DNA from: Carboxylicivirga caseinilyticus
GTDB taxonomy: Bacteria > Bacteroidota > Bacteroidia > Bacteroidales > Marinilabiliaceae
Assembly: GCA_025499705.1 (NCBI GenBank)
Contig: JAFMVE010000008.1
Location: 62,001-126,000, forward strand
DNA: 64,000 bases
Direction: 5' to 3'
The notes under the pieces were generated by a model that saw only the letters and a list, made by a program, of their open reading frames with translations, ran no database searches and was not told where the DNA came from. Made by a program: the position numbers and the translations under genes. Position 1 is the first letter of the stretch. Each line of letters begins with the position of its first letter. Positions 13,062-17,926 of the stretch are shown one piece after another.

Positions 13062-14843
13062 TTACGAAAAGCTATTAACCATTTTATAAAATTCTCCCTT
13101 AGAAGAAATAAGATCTTCGTAAGAGCCATTCTCACAAATCTCACCATCTTTTAATACTACAATTATATCCGCCAAATGAATGGTCGAAAGTCTGTGACTT
13201 ACAATGATTGCTGTTCTGTTTCGGGTAATTTCTTTAAAATGTGAGATTAGATTCGCCTCGGTAAAAGCATCTAATGAACTGGTTGGTTCGTCAAGAATAA
13301 TAATCTGAGCATCGTTATAAAAGGATCGGGCAAGAGCAGTTCGTTGCCATTCGCCTCTGCTAAGCATCTCACTATCTTTAAAAAGTGTTCCCAACGGTGT
13401 TTCATACCCTTTTTTCAGGTTGTCGAAAATGTTATGAATGCCAGCATTTTGGGCAGCTTTTTTTATTTGATCTATCTCATATGGGCGACGCACATTCCCG
13501 TATCTGATATTATCTTTCGCTGAAACATTGTAAAGCATAAAATCCTGAAAAATGATGCTCATGTTTTCTGCCAGATCACTTGGATGAATGTCATTGAGAT
13601 TGCAATTATCCAGTACTATTTTACCACTTGTTGGCTTATATAAACCGGCAAGAAGTTTTACTAATGTTGTTTTACCAGATCCATTAGCCCCAACCAAAGC
13701 TATCGTTTTTCCAACAGGGATGGTAAGATTAAGATTTTTAAAGACCCATCTCTCAGTATTTGGGTATTTAAAACCAATTCCATTGAATTGGATGTTGTTT
13801 TTTAAAGGGGTTGGGAAATTTCCAATTACATTTTTTTCAGAAGGAAGCTCGATTCGTTGAAAATCAAAAAAGTTTTTAAGAAATAAATTGTCTTCAAGTA
13901 AGGATGATATGCGGGTAAGGAATTCCTGTAAAACTGCATAACTTCGTTGTAAAGCTAAAAAATACATAGCCATTGCTCCATTCGTAATCTTTCCTTCAAT
14001 TGCTTCAACAATAATAAACGAGAATACGACCAGTAGAATAAGTGTTGCAAATACCTGCACCAAAGTTTCACGGAGTGTTTTGCTTTTTGATATGGACCAC
14101 TGTTTACTTCTTAAGTTATCTCTTACTTCGTTGTACTTATTACTAAATGTTTTACTTAGGTTGAAAATGCGAACTTCTTTTGCAAAATCTTTACCAACCA
14201 ATAAGCGATTGAAATAATGTAATCGTCTTTCGTCTTCTGTTTGCTCTTGTTTTAAATCATATCCTTTCTTGGAAAAGTATAACCGAAAAATTATAATCGG
14301 AAAGCCGGCAATCATTAAGATTGGTATAATTAACCAGTTAAAGGTGGTTAAAACTGTGAGCATTACAATTAAGGTAATTGTATTCTGAAGTAATCCAAGC
14401 AGACTGTAAAATACTTTGCTTGGTCTGAAATTGGCTTCATTAACAGCTCTGAAGAATAAATCCTGATAGGTACTGTCCTCAAAAAAACCGTATGGTAATC
14501 GAACCGTCTTAAAATGAATGAGGTTTTGTATGTAATCATTTAGGAAATGAGAATGTCTTTCTCGCACCAGGTTATTTACAGATCCACTGATGGCATTAAG
14601 AAGGAAAAAAGCTCCTACTAAAGTTAACGTCGGATATAGATTGGATATTGCAAAATTATTGTTGGAGCTGGAAAAGCTCACAATATCAATTAATTGTTTT
14701 ACGACTAATAAAAGTAAAAGAGGTATAAGACCTCTTATTATTGTGAAAACAGAATTTATAAAAGTCCATTTGGGTGAACTTAAATAAACCAATTCAACTG
14801 CCTTAAAGATGTGTTTTAATGAATGTGATTTTTTAGCGCTCAT
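13062..14843 (-). CDS. ABC exporter, fused permease and ATPase, of the peptide-maturation operon
   Basis: A 593-residue half-transporter: about six membrane helices in residues 25-310, then the ATPase with Walker A GANGSGKTT (385-393), signature LSRGEWQR (494-501, where LSGGQ is usual), Walker B IIILDEPTSSLD (514-525) and the H-loop His550. It has no N-terminal C39 peptidase domain, so leader removal must be done elsewhere, presumably by the S26-type peptidase encoded 101 bases upstream. It most likely forms a homodimer that exports the processed peptide. Lipid or drug export is the alternative. It is the last gene of the operon. Confidence 0.85.
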   Translation of the reverse strand: MSAKKSHSLKHIFKAVELVYLSSPKWTFINSVFTIIRGLIPLLLLLVVKQLIDIVSFSSSNNNFAISNLYPTLTLVGAFFLLNAISGSVNNLVRERHSHFLNDYIQNLIHFKTVRLPYGFFEDSTYQDLFFRAVNEANFRPSKVFYSLLGLLQNTITLIVMLTVLTTFNWLIIPILMIAGFPIIIFRLYFSKKGYDLKQEQTEDERRLHYFNRLLVGKDFAKEVRIFNLSKTFSNKYNEVRDNLRSKQWSISKSKTLRETLVQVFATLILLVVFSFIIVEAIEGKITNGAMAMYFLALQRSYAVLQEFLTRISSLLEDNLFLKNFFDFQRIELPSEKNVIGNFPTPLKNNIQFNGIGFKYPNTERWVFKNLNLTIPVGKTIALVGANGSGKTTLVKLLAGLYKPTSGKIVLDNCNLNDIHPSDLAENMSIIFQDFMLYNVSAKDNIRYGNVRRPYEIDQIKKAAQNAGIHNIFDNLKKGYETPLGTLFKDSEMLSRGEWQRTALARSFYNDAQIIILDEPTSSLDAFTEANLISHFKEITRNRTAIIVSHRLSTIHLADIIVVLKDGEICENGSYEDLISSKGEFYKMVNSFS

Positions 14844-14944
14844 TAATTATGTTGGATATAACACTAAAGTAATATTAATAATCCAGCAATTTAAAAACCA
14901 AATAGAGAAAATATTCTAATAGGTTATTTTAGAGTGTTGGAAAT

Positions 14945-15388
14945 TTAAATGGAGTGATGTGTCAATTTTAAATATAATATTGCCGTATATCTTATTATCA
15001 CTCTTGGAAATTTTCCAAGACGTGGCATCAATTGTTTTGCAAATCTGAAAATCCAATGATTAACAGATCGATAGCTGTTTTTTCTTGTTCTTCCAATTAC
15101 TTTTCCTAAAATACCTTGTTCTGATAAAATTGGGTCAGTAGAAAAAAGACTATCTCCTTTGCATATAACTTTTGTGTTGGAAATAGAAATAATTCTATGA
15201 GCGATAAGTGTTTCTTTTCCTTTAAAAACGATAATGTCACCTTTGGCGTAAGTTCTTTCTGGAGATATTTTTAATTTATCTCCAGGCAATAGCAAAGGAA
15301 ACATACTGATCCCATGAGCTTGAATCTCTGTTGTTTTACCTTCTTTTAAAAGATCAACGATAATATTTATGAAATCATTTTTATCCAA
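14945..15388 (-). CDS. S26-family (signal peptidase-like) serine peptidase of Ser-His type
   Basis: A 147-residue protein with the three boxes of signal peptidases: GISMFPLLLPGD with Ser28, GDIIVFKGKETLIAHRII with His64, and ICKGDS with Asp79. His64 stands where bacterial SipS/LepB enzymes have the general-base Lys, so this is the archaeal/ER (S26B) arrangement. There is no N-terminal membrane anchor; only the C-terminal 30 residues are moderately hydrophobic. Its start overlaps the end of the kinase-like gene by eight bases. The likely job is cleavage of the small peptide's leader in the cytoplasm or at the membrane (inference from the operon). Confidence 0.75.
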   Translation of the reverse strand: MDKNDFINIIVDLLKEGKTTEIQAHGISMFPLLLPGDKLKISPERTYAKGDIIVFKGKETLIAHRIISISNTKVICKGDSLFSTDPILSEQGILGKVIGRTRKNSYRSVNHWIFRFAKQLMPRLGKFPRVIIRYTAILYLKLTHHSI

Positions 15389-16268
15389 ATTTATTCAGAA
15401 TTAAATCTATAATCTCAGTGTCGGGTTTGAAACCAACTTCATATACACCAATACTCTCAACAGTCTTAGTAATATAATCCAATCTTTCTTTAATCTGCAA
15501 TTCGTTGAAATGATATTGTATACAATTACTCAAAACAGAAAGGATTCCACTGGTTGTACTTAGGGGTTTAATGTAGTTATGGGGTGATTGCTTAATGATG
15601 AAAAGTTTATTAAGCTGTACACTCTTATTAACATCTTTGTAATATGGCATAGGAGTATTGTATAAATAATAATCCTGACCATGCGGATTAACAATAATTC
15701 TGTCATCATTAATGATAGTAGCTCCTTTTTTTTGCCATAGTTTTGCCATGGTTGTTTTACCTGTACCCGAAACAGCAGAGAACAAAAATCCAGCTCCATT
15801 ATAGTTTACAGCCGAAGCATGCATAATAAAGCCTTTACTACTGTGAACAATGTATTGTAAAATCAGGATTCCAATAGGGTGAAAGAATGGATCAATTTCA
15901 ATGGTTTCTTTGGGTTTGGTTATCAGCTGCAGATTAATCGCTTTTTCTTTTTCGTTAATTGTTGCTAATCCTGAATGTATGTCAATGTCTTTTTCAAATT
16001 CAAAGTGAATAAACTTGCTGGAATCATTTTTTAGTAGCTTCCACTTGTAAGGAATTTCTTCTTCAAAGGATTGAGCCCCTTTAAATACTGTTTGAAGGTT
16101 AGTAAGGTCGATTTCTTCTATACAGTCAATGTTAAATATCCAATCATGCTTTTCAGAACTTTCTATGAAAAGCTGACTTCCACATAACGTTTTAGGCAAT
16201 AAAAAAGGACATAAGAAATTAACTTTTATTCTTATATCCCCAATATTGTAAATGGTGCTATATACCAT
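15381..16268 (-). CDS. HPr-kinase-like (HprK) P-loop protein of a RiPP-type operon
   Basis: A 295-residue protein. The C-terminal half carries the HprK-like ATPase fold: IMHASAVNYNGAG with His150, the P-loop SAVSGTGKTT (164-173), then INDDRIIV with Asp188-Asp189. The N-terminal 130 residues have no motif I can name. It lacks the full-length HPr kinase/phosphorylase layout and no HPr gene is near, so it belongs to the HprK-like proteins found beside PqqD-like proteins in peptide clusters. In lasso-peptide clusters such kinases phosphorylate a Ser of the precursor; a similar act here is inference. Confidence 0.75.
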   Translation of the reverse strand: MVYSTIYNIGDIRIKVNFLCPFLLPKTLCGSQLFIESSEKHDWIFNIDCIEEIDLTNLQTVFKGAQSFEEEIPYKWKLLKNDSSKFIHFEFEKDIDIHSGLATINEKEKAINLQLITKPKETIEIDPFFHPIGILILQYIVHSSKGFIMHASAVNYNGAGFLFSAVSGTGKTTMAKLWQKKGATIINDDRIIVNPHGQDYYLYNTPMPYYKDVNKSVQLNKLFIIKQSPHNYIKPLSTTSGILSVLSNCIQYHFNELQIKERLDYITKTVESIGVYEVGFKPDTEIIDLILNKFG

Positions 16269-16275
16269 TGATCAA

Positions 16276-16482
16276 TTACAAGTTATCATAATCTGGTGTT
16301 GTACCTCCAAAAGGAGTATCTGAATTAAGAGTGGTTGGATATTCAGGTGATGGACCTGGTGCCTTGGAGAATGGATCAGGAGGTCCAGGATCGCCCGGAG
16401 TTGACATCATAATAAGAGAGATCTCTTGATCAATCTGATAAGTTTCGATGGTAGGCGGTATATATGCTCTTTTAATCTTCAT
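16276..16482 (-). CDS. Candidate RiPP precursor peptide, Pro/Gly/Asp-rich, 68 residues
   Basis: It lies between the PqqD-like gene (12-base gap) and the kinase gene (7-base gap), in the same direction. Residues 1-27 look like a leader: basic start, YIPPTIETYQIDQE, then a short hydrophobic ISLIMMS. Residues 28-68 have 11 Pro, several Gly and Asp, and 9 Ser/Thr, but no Cys (TPGDPGPPDPF..., ending in TPDYDNL). The start motif Y-x-x-P-x-x-E recurs in small Bacteroidota peptides of unknown role. It has no ordinary Sec signal. Core limits and modification are unknown. Confidence 0.7.
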   Translation of the reverse strand: MKIKRAYIPPTIETYQIDQEISLIMMSTPGDPGPPDPFSKAPGPSPEYPTTLNSDTPFGGTTPDYDNL

Positions 16483-16494
16483 TTATATAATCAC

Positions 16495-16779
16495 TTAATC
16501 AAGTGGTTTTATGATTTTGGCTTTAATAGCTTCAGATATAAATACTTTTATATCATCTTTAGCAACCTGGTTATATACTTCAAATTCTTTACAGACCAAA
16601 TGTAATATTTCAGTTTCTGTTTTAGGTTCAAGTAATTGATCATAAATAAATAAGCCAACTTCATTTAAGGAGAAAACTTTATTCATTTGAGCAACTTCTG
16701 ATGCCACAGGAACTATAACCAATTCATCTCCAATCTTTTTTTCTACGTATCCGGTTACTTTTCTAAAACGCTGTTCCAC
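16495..16779 (-). CDS. PqqD-like RiPP recognition element protein
   Basis: A 94-residue stand-alone PqqD-like protein, the family that binds leader peptides and presents them to modifying enzymes. Typical features are the strand GDELVIVPVASEVAQMNKVF, the FSLNEVGLFIYDQLLEPKTE helix-turn, and EILHLVCKEFEV followed by DDIKVFISEAIKAKII. The start codon is GTG at 16779, chosen because the domain begins right away and a TAnnTTTG element lies 18 bases upstream. It is the first gene of the operon; the partner peptide is encoded next. Confidence 0.85.
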   Translation of the reverse strand: MEQRFRKVTGYVEKKIGDELVIVPVASEVAQMNKVFSLNEVGLFIYDQLLEPKTETEILHLVCKEFEVYNQVAKDDIKVFISEAIKAKIIKPLD

Positions 16780-16796
16780 TGTAAATAAATTAGTTG

Positions 16797-16804
16797 CAAA
16801 AATA
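16797..16804 (-). promoter_or_regulatory. Candidate -7 element of the peptide-maturation operon
   Basis: On the minus strand TATTTTTG matches TAnnTTTG, and the GTG start of the PqqD-like gene is 18 bases downstream, giving a very short leader. No clear -33 TTTG is seen. It suggests that the operon is transcribed separately from tsaD, which lies upstream in the same direction. Confidence 0.45.
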
Positions 16805-16906: not shown

Positions 16907-17926
16907 TTAAAATTCTAATCGCGCAAAAGGGGCCGTTTCCTGACCAACAAATTCTTTTCGCAAATATTTATAATAACCATTAATAGCAATCATTGCTGCA
17001 TTGTCGGTCGTGTACGCAAACTTTGGTATATAGGTTACCCAATTATATTTATGTGCCGATTCATTTATTCTGTTTCGCAATCCTGAGTTGGCTGAAACGC
17101 CTCCAGCCAAAGCTATCTGCTTAATACCAGTGTCTTTCGAAGCTTTAATTAATTTGTTCATTAATGTATCGATAATGGTCTTTTGGAGGGAGGCACAAAT
17201 ATCATTTTTGTTTTCCTCAATAAAATCCGGATTGACCTTAATCTGATCTCTTAAGAAATAAAGAAATGAAGTTTTTAATCCACTAAAGCTGTAATCGTAA
17301 TTATCTATTCTAGGCTTACTAAAAGAATAAGCATTTTCATTACCCTGTGAAGCAAGTTTATCAATCAGGGGGCCTCCCGGATAAGGTAAACCCATTACTT
17401 TAGCACATTTATCAAACGCTTCACCTGCAGCATCGTCAATGGTCTGTCCAATAATCTCCATCTCCAAATGACTTTTAACCAAAACAATTTGACTATTACC
17501 TCCTGATACAAGCAGACATAAAAAAGGAAACTCAGGTTGATCAGTATCTTCCGGATGTTCTTTTATAAAATGAGCCAGAACATGTGCGTGCAAATGGTTC
17601 ACTTCAATTAAAGGTAAGTTATTTGCCAAAGCGAATCCTTTAGCGAAAGAAGTACCAACCAACAATGATCCCATTAGACCAGGCCCACGGGTAAATGCAA
17701 CTGCATTAATTTCGTCTTTATTTATTTTGGCATCCTTGATTGCTTTGTCTACAACTGGTATAATATTTTGCTGATGAGCACGCGAAGCTAATTCAGGTAC
17801 AACTCCTCCAAAAGCTTTGTGCACATCCTGATTTGCAACACAGTTTGATAGGATCACTTCATCTTTAAACACTGCTGCTGAAGTATCATCGCAAGATGAT
17901 TCAATGGCTAAAATAATCACACTCAT
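16907..17926 (-). CDS. tsaD: tRNA N6-adenosine threonylcarbamoyltransferase TsaD
   Basis: A 339-residue TsaD, which completes the t6A37 modification of tRNAs reading ANN codons. Visible motifs: IESSCDDTSAAV at the N-terminus, AFTRGPGLMGSLLVG, the metal-binding VNHLHAHVLAH (H-x3-H), LVSGGNSQIV and ALAGGVSANSGLR. The length is standard. It is followed in the same direction by the peptide operon after 127 bases and is divergent from tamB. Confidence 0.97.
   Translation of the reverse strand: MSVIILAIESSCDDTSAAVFKDEVILSNCVANQDVHKAFGGVVPELASRAHQQNIIPVVDKAIKDAKINKDEINAVAFTRGPGLMGSLLVGTSFAKGFALANNLPLIEVNHLHAHVLAHFIKEHPEDTDQPEFPFLCLLVSGGNSQIVLVKSHLEMEIIGQTIDDAAGEAFDKCAKVMGLPYPGGPLIDKLASQGNENAYSFSKPRIDNYDYSFSGLKTSFLYFLRDQIKVNPDFIEENKNDICASLQKTIIDTLMNKLIKASKDTGIKQIALAGGVSANSGLRNRINESAHKYNWVTYIPKFAYTTDNAAMIAINGYYKYLRKEFVGQETAPFARLEF

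Follow-up and report, generated by a model that had tools for sequence, protein, structure and literature searches.

A conserved PqqD/HprK-like peptide operon of Carboxylicivirga caseinilyticus and its linkage to type IX secretion cargo genes

The operon and its products

The window, by which we mean the whole 64,000-nucleotide (nt) stretch of a Carboxylicivirga caseinilyticus contig analysed here, encodes a five-gene operon on its minus strand. The open reading frames (ORFs) of the window specify, in order, a PqqD-like protein, a small peptide, an HprK-like kinase, an S26-type protease and an ATP-binding cassette (ABC) exporter (Table 1, positions in window coordinates). From pqqD to the exporter gene they are spaced by gaps of 12 and 7 bases, an 8-base overlap of the kinase and S26 genes and a gap of 101 bases; this layout, and the single direction of all five genes, agree with the original prediction, which had described a minimal operon for a RiPP (ribosomally synthesized and post-translationally modified peptide). 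We propose that the operon encodes a RiPP-type phosphopeptide pathway, and genomic linkage suggests that the mature peptide may be a surface partner of a subclass of type IX secretion system (T9SS) cargo.

The PqqD-like protein exceeds its Pfam cut-off of 23.4 bits. A PDB profile search with it returned leader-binding proteins of lasso peptide pathways, with TbiB1 (5v1u, E 8e-11) as the best solved relative. The exporter meets the Pfam cut-offs for ABC_membrane and ABC_tran, and none of its 25 Pfam matches is a C39 domain, as the original prediction had stated. The peptide has no match in Pfam or NCBIfam. NCBIfam gave no match over cut-off for the first four proteins or among the 25 exporter matches shown.

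The kinase carries the residue set of HprK-like peptide kinases (a His, a P-loop Gly-x-Gly-Lys-[ST] and an Asp-Asp pair). H150, S167-G168-x-G170-K171-x-T173 and D188-D189 are invariant in 40 aligned sequences. Its PDB profile matches are HPr kinases and phosphoenolpyruvate carboxykinases (PEPCK). The AlphaFold model has a mean predicted local distance difference test (pLDDT) score of 94.8 and is matched by Foldseek to PEPCK and HprK chains, with TM-scores by query of 0.2-0.5. In the protease, S28, H64 and D79 are kept in 25/25 aligned sequences, SEC11C/SEC11A are the best hits of the PDB profile search, and the model (mean pLDDT 94.9) matches the LexA fold best (E <0.001) and signal peptidases more weakly (E >=0.001). 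Given these three lines, we assign the protein to the Ser-His type of protease. By eye, no N-terminal membrane anchor is visible in it.

Matches in an anti-phage search with PADLOC were confined to the exporter, through its ATPase, and the other four operon proteins had none; a role in anti-phage defence was rejected.

Table 1 Features of the operon and its surroundings
Feature	Position	Strand	Size and basis
PqqD-like stand-alone leader-binding protein	16495..16779	-	94 aa, GTG start; PF05402 46.2 bits
Precursor peptide	16276..16482	-	68 aa, ATG start; one of 50 aligned operon peptides
Leader motif YIPPTI, residues 7-12 (YxxPxI)	16447..16464	-	[YF]xxP common to family
Ser27 (Tyr7+20), predicted phosphorylation site	16402..16404	-	Ser/Thr register in family
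C-terminal core motif TPFGGTTPDYDNL, residues 56-68	16279..16317	-	[NSDT]PF near end of family peptides
HprK-like P-loop kinase	15381..16268	-	295 aa; invariant catalytic residues, PDB profile matches, model and Foldseek
Walker A SGTGKTT of kinase	15750..15770	-	40-sequence kinase alignment
S26-type protease, Ser28/His64/Asp79	14945..15388	-	147 aa, TTG start; invariant residues
ABC exporter, permease and ATPase in single chain	13062..14843	-	593 aa; PF00664, PF00005
TATTTTTG, -7-like element, 25 bases before pqqD	16797..16804	-	resemblance to consensus, weak
tsaD, conserved upstream neighbour, outside pathway	16907..17926	-	homologue upstream of pqqD in relatives
S26-ABC fusions in other loci	L124:1716-3953, L126:3771-6050, L317:1179-3593		homologue scan

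Distribution and gene order

A kinase homologue occurs in 69 of the 71 genomes of the window's family, in single copy except for one genome (G024) with two. We compared 81 kinase loci, the window and 80 others, some of whose stretches finish at contig ends. All five genes stand in this order in 36 of them, the window included. Taken gene by gene, 75 loci have PqqD, 50 the peptide, 59 a separate S26 gene and 53 an ABC gene, where S26 loci were scored with a profile that leaves out ORFs of at least 215 aa because fused S26-ABC ORFs otherwise enter it. Of the 75 loci having a PqqD gene, 51 have a tsaD homologue as the immediate upstream neighbour of pqqD. This co-occurrence and order are more than chance. 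Infrequent association of the kinase with peptide and peptidase genes, or a peptide frame unconserved in relatives, would have spoken against the original prediction; what we find is strong co-occurrence and conservation of the peptide at the protein level. In some lineages PqqD and HprK occur with no peptide that we could recognise.

The association extends to the order. Among 247 genomes sampled there, 58 match the kinase at E 0.001; in 23 the match falls below 1e-20, a threshold of our own choice. The peptide occurs in 20/23 genomes below this threshold versus 5/224 of the others. After removal of the genomes of the window's own family and seven genomes that had contributed to the profile, the figures are 9/12 and 5/224 (Fisher p 8e-11, which serves only as a guide since the genomes are related). 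At the laxer kinase threshold of E 0.001, the 58 matching genomes take in 22 of the 25 that bear the peptide.

In a sample of 395 genomes from the whole phylum, the peptide profile matches the window's own genome and three others. Of these three, G335 and G425 belong to a family denoted f140 and also hold the two best kinase matches outside the window's family (E 4e-66 and 8e-65, followed by 2e-30). One plasmid record gave a partial match of 28%, and spread on plasmids was rejected.

In three order-level loci, from three families, an S26 domain is fused ahead of the ABC exporter within one ORF (Table 1). These fused homologues pass the Pfam cut-off for Peptidase_S24 alone. Their architecture argues that cleavage is tied to export.

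Related cassettes are found elsewhere. In another part of the phylum, five loci of a family denoted f136 (L281, L282, L283, L286 and L295) have an HprK-like domain within ORFs of about 660-690 aa, which suggests HprK-like fusions. Three further PqqD-HprK cassettes (L306, L307 and L312), two of them with S26, lie beside different genes of no assigned identity and probably represent different peptide pathways.

Upstream of the operon, 127 bases separate pqqD from the gene that we take, from its sequence, to be tsaD. The element TATTTTTG resembles what we presume to be the Bacteroidota -7 consensus, TAnnTTTG; the resemblance is weak and suggests that pqqD may have a promoter separate from that of tsaD. 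Downstream, between 11170 and 13061 of the window, an ORF of 184 aa resembling an extracytoplasmic function (ECF) sigma factor overlaps a 447-aa ORF by 7 bases, both identities being judged by eye. The pair is convergent with the ABC gene and keeps its position across the genus. Among the window's ORFs, no gene beyond the five lies between tsaD and the convergent 447-aa ORF.

The peptide family and its predicted phosphosite

The peptide has a variable core rich in Pro, Gly and Asp behind a conserved leader. Y7, P10 and D18 never vary in a 41-row alignment of operon peptides. Across the family, 150 of 152 distinct peptides have [YF]xxP in the scanned region; the YxxP of the remaining two lies beyond that region, and they are unscored. 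Counting from this Tyr, a Pro stands at Y+3 in 150/150 and an Asp at Y+11 in 144/150. Position Y+20 is Ser (97) or Thr (49) in 146/150 when the first [YF]xxP of each sequence is taken. The four exceptions, once re-registered on a second YxxP, each have Asp at Y+11 and Ser or Thr at Y+20, bringing the count to 150/150, although one of them (L162) is a weak match and may not belong to the family. The peptides form 113 clusters in a rough clustering at about 50% identity.

Ala and Gly are the residues usual before a signal peptidase cut, and neither occurs at Y+20 in any family peptide scored. The restriction to Ser and Thr therefore argues that a hydroxyl group is needed at this position, rather than merely a small residue. 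We predict it to be the site of phosphorylation, which by analogy is the likeliest modification of the peptide.

In 106/130 distinct peptides a second conserved element, [NSDT]PF, lies no more than 25 residues from the C-terminus. The operon peptide has the C-terminus PFGGxxPDYxN, and many of the peptides linked to T9SS cargo genes end near NPFE; the two kinds may have different partners. Three paralogues (L176, L212 and L216) are Gly-rich, with runs such as GQGGG and GPGGKPKGAAQ in those read, and their nearest neighbour is not a T9SS gene.

Both hallmarks of a RiPP precursor, a conserved leader motif and an accompanying protein of the PqqD/RiPP recognition element (RRE) kind, are present. 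The gene content supports a single pathway that would comprise PqqD-type leader binding, precursor, kinase, Ser-His protease and exporter. To this extent the original prediction of a RiPP-type operon stands, with phosphorylation as the preferred modification.

Linkage to type IX secretion cargo genes

The picture implied originally, a lone natural-product cluster of five genes, does not fit a locus that is nearly universal in its family, nor the second peptide gene in the same genome. Most genomes of the family carry a second peptide copy outside the operon. We analysed 80 of 102 such non-operon matches, and most of the remaining 22 rank lower. Many of the 80 loci are orthologous, and they cannot be counted as independent. 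In 55 of them the peptide gene starts -1 to 49 bases behind a same-strand gene with a T9SS C-terminal domain (CTD). As background, such a tail occurs in 17/346 of the remaining ORFs of >=150 aa in these stretches. In 62/80 the closest gene on one side or the other is a CTD gene. This linkage could not be seen from the window alone.

Our local CTD profile was built from some of the same loci, and for this reason the tails were also checked with TIGR04183. It matches 53/55 at E 0.01 or better, not all necessarily above the curated cut-off; PF18962 matches 23/55. Genes ahead of peptides thus carry the TIGR04183 tails of type A cargo of the T9SS. Domain scans of eight cargo proteins gave Big_5 Ig-like domains in four and an M1 peptidase in one. 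The genes downstream of the non-operon peptides fall into 20 clusters; judged by eye, the two largest represent a single region. Of 13 genomes tested, 11 have the sortase PorU over cut-off, those of the window, G335 and G425 included.

In the window's own genome, the second peptide (L168) lies 19 bases behind a T9SS cargo gene. Searches of this genome return a single match for each of the kinase, S26 protease and PqqD protein, and thus reveal no separate machinery of this type for the second peptide.

At the order level, a CTD gene directly precedes pqqD in 4 of 12 operon loci, at distances of 4 (L118), 5 (L122), 11 (L119) and 77 bases (L123). In L125 a cargo gene lies 12 bases behind the S26 gene. 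Several operons without nearby S26 or ABC genes (L079, L090, L095, L100 and L101) are convergent to very large cargo genes.

The link between peptide gene and T9SS cargo recurs in another part of the phylum. In the two f140 genomes, which lie outside the window's class, 6/6 peptides are encoded 32-131 bases behind genes with T9SS-like tails, and pqqD lies 27-30 bases before another T9SS-tailed gene. The four tails tested of these six, and those of both genes behind pqqD, exceed the TIGR04183 cut-off. This TIGR04183 check took in 10 of the 19 tails that were aligned.

The peptide-linked tails of the family differ from the bulk of tails in the window's genome. PNP occurs in 0/55 of the former, and 48/55 have RFxL early in their 110 C-terminal residues. 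The genome's 30 best-scoring tails, 27 of them readable, have PNP in 25/27 and RFxL in 0/27, although the best-scoring CTDs favour PNP and 22 of the genome's 101 TIGR04183 matches begin at a profile position of at least 8 and may be without it. Lack of PNP is not a universal mark of peptide-linked cargo, since the f140 tails have PNP in 8/8.

No description linking PqqD or an HPr kinase to type IX secretion was found in the literature searched. In the available part of a survey of Bacteroidales RiPPs (PMC10352776), the main text contains no HPr, S26 or type IX, and PqqD appears in the reference list alone.

Proposed pathway

We propose the following sequence of events. The PqqD-like protein would hold the precursor through its YxxPxI leader while the HprK-like kinase phosphorylates the Ser/Thr at Tyr+20, Ser27 in the window. 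The Ser-His S26 protease, working at the ABC exporter on its cytoplasmic side, may then cut off the leader, and the exporter would carry what is left, a Pro/Gly/Asp-rich peptide running from about residue 24-28 to residue 68, out of the cytoplasm. The second peptide, encoded elsewhere in the genome behind a T9SS cargo gene, could be served by the same set of proteins. At the cell surface, a subclass of T9SS cargo would probably have the mature peptide as its dedicated partner, whether as binder, maturation factor or anchoring factor.

Close parallels and conserved residues argue for the enzymatic steps, and genome linkage suggests the meeting of peptide and cargo. We accordingly place more trust in the phosphopeptide part than in a direct physical partnership, and any effect of the peptide on its cargo is the most conjectural element. 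The whole chain, from operon to surface partner, we rate at slightly better than an even chance. A more specific version is more tentative, and we put it somewhat short of even: the PqqD/HprK/S26/ABC machine would be an accessory arm of the T9SS, making phosphopeptides that are each encoded with, and dedicated to, one cargo. Under the same version, and with the same reserve, the peptide would complete, guide or anchor a T9SS surface protein, as a core trait of the Carboxylicivirga/Marinilabilia family that recurs outside the class.

Several observations weigh against this proposal. Some concern the enzymes. The kinase falls below the Pfam cut-off for Hpr_kinase_C (PF07475, 19.4 of 33.3 bits), as does the protease for Peptidase_S24 (19.1 of 23.3) and Peptidase_S26 (PF10502, 16.3 of 22.9), and the fold matches of both are only moderate. 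We retain the names because the catalytic residues are invariant and the models are confident, with folds that match to this moderate degree. In BsfA, the lasso precursor discussed below, single replacement of the leader Tyr or Leu leaves phosphorylation undiminished according to the available part of PMC10368454, and the YxxP register therefore need not matter to the kinase.

Others concern the locus. S26 is not near 20, and ABC not near 28, of the 81 kinase loci, in some cases at contig ends. Two of the 71 family genomes are without the kinase though both match the peptide. The peptide is matched in 64/71 genomes and in 7/71 not at all. Neither S26 nor ABC was found in the two f140 stretches.

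The cargo linkage, too, has exceptions. Among the 80 non-operon peptides, 25 are without a CTD gene immediately upstream and 18 without one as nearest neighbour on either side, and no T9SS gene lies beside the window's operon. The window's genome has 101 TIGR04183 matches, about 2% of an estimated 4700 genes, and two peptides, of which one follows a cargo gene, so that most T9SS cargo does without a peptide. The f140 tails are scored weakly or not at all by the local CTD profile and were found by TIGR04183 only.

Alternative explanations

The phosphopeptide could instead be a secreted signal that reports on or regulates the production of T9SS cargo and is not its physical partner. A small peptide with an exporter, multi-copy in most genomes of the family, would suit such a role, and the spacing of cargo and peptide genes suggests co-transcription. 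The operon, however, contains no receptor or regulator gene; the ECF-sigma-like gene recognised by eye is convergent and merely nearby. We consider a signal unlikely, though it fares best among the alternatives.

It is less likely still that the operon makes a minimal RiPP natural product, for example an antimicrobial, with T9SS genes as incidental neighbours. The kinds of genes are typical of RiPP clusters and an exporter is present, but the near-universal kinase (69/71) and the fixed place behind tsaD (51/75) are unlike a sporadic cluster. The operon has no further gene such as one for immunity, and the CTD linkage is far above background. This implication of the original prediction is not upheld.

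About equally improbable, in our judgement, is hitch-hiking, in which one ancestral cargo-peptide pair was inherited and moved without a functional tie. The orthology of many of the 80 loci would be expected from it, as would the single-linkage cluster that holds 62 of 71 cargoes. However, the downstream neighbours form 20 clusters, representing somewhat fewer regions, the eight cargoes scanned include such unlike proteins as those with Big_5 Ig arrays and one with an M1 peptidase, and f140 shows the same layout with cargoes in separate clusters.

A lasso peptide pathway or its remnant is very improbable and was rejected: the YxxPxI leader, PqqD-type protein and kinase do resemble those of kinase-bearing lasso clusters as described in the available part of PMC10368454, but the core is Pro/Gly-rich and variable, the transglutaminase-like B2 protease (PF13471) was found in 0/11 genomes searched, the window's own included, and no gene for an Asn-synthetase-like cyclase lies in the operon or window locus (a genome-wide search for it was not made), both as originally predicted.

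If the proposed phosphopeptide pathway with its surface role is correct, RiPP-style peptide modification would be housekeeping in the surface building of some Bacteroidota and not solely a route to natural products. It would define a substrate residue for an HprK-like kinase. The final attachment of T9SS cargo is only partly understood, and the peptides would offer a new handle on such cargo.

Comparison with known systems

Paeninodin-type lasso kinases are HprK-like kinases that act on a precursor peptide. They target a C-terminal Ser (PMC10368454, available part), whereas the conserved Ser/Thr of the window's family is internal.

A closer parallel is the lasso cluster of Bradymonas sediminis. 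According to the same available text (PMC10368454), its HprK-like kinase BsfK phosphorylates Ser3 of the precursor, accepts Thr but not Tyr, and is sped up by the PqqD-type leader-binding protein BsfB1. The precursor BsfA has a YxxPxL leader at -17 to -12, from which we count the target Ser at Tyr+19, versus the conserved Ser/Thr at Tyr+20 in the window's family. The BsfK motif residues given there (H148, G166, G168, K169, S170, D186 and D187) agree, by comparison of the printed residues, with those of the window's kinase in order and nearly in number; G163 of BsfK corresponds to Ala or Gly in the kinase family. The two systems share a YxxPx[LI] leader, a stand-alone PqqD-type protein and an HprK-like kinase. 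The window's system differs from the described part of the Bsf system in its S26 protease, in that B2 was not found in the genomes searched and no cyclase gene lies in the operon, and in its Pro/Gly/Asp-rich peptide core, its conserved core locus and its linkage to T9SS cargo.

PqqD-like and HprK-like proteins are also paired in the SynChlorMet system, as ScmD and ScmC. The window's proteins score far below the NCBIfam cut-offs for ScmC (23 of 125) and ScmD (22.8 of 100), and likewise for the HprK-related kinases B (31.1 of 200) and A (17.9 of 200).

ABC transporters containing a C39 peptidase couple leader removal to export. The S26-ABC pairing, if the proposed pathway holds, would parallel these exporters in coupling protease and export, here indicated by the three S26-ABC fusions; unlike them, it would use an S26 Ser-His protease on a leader without the double-Gly motif.

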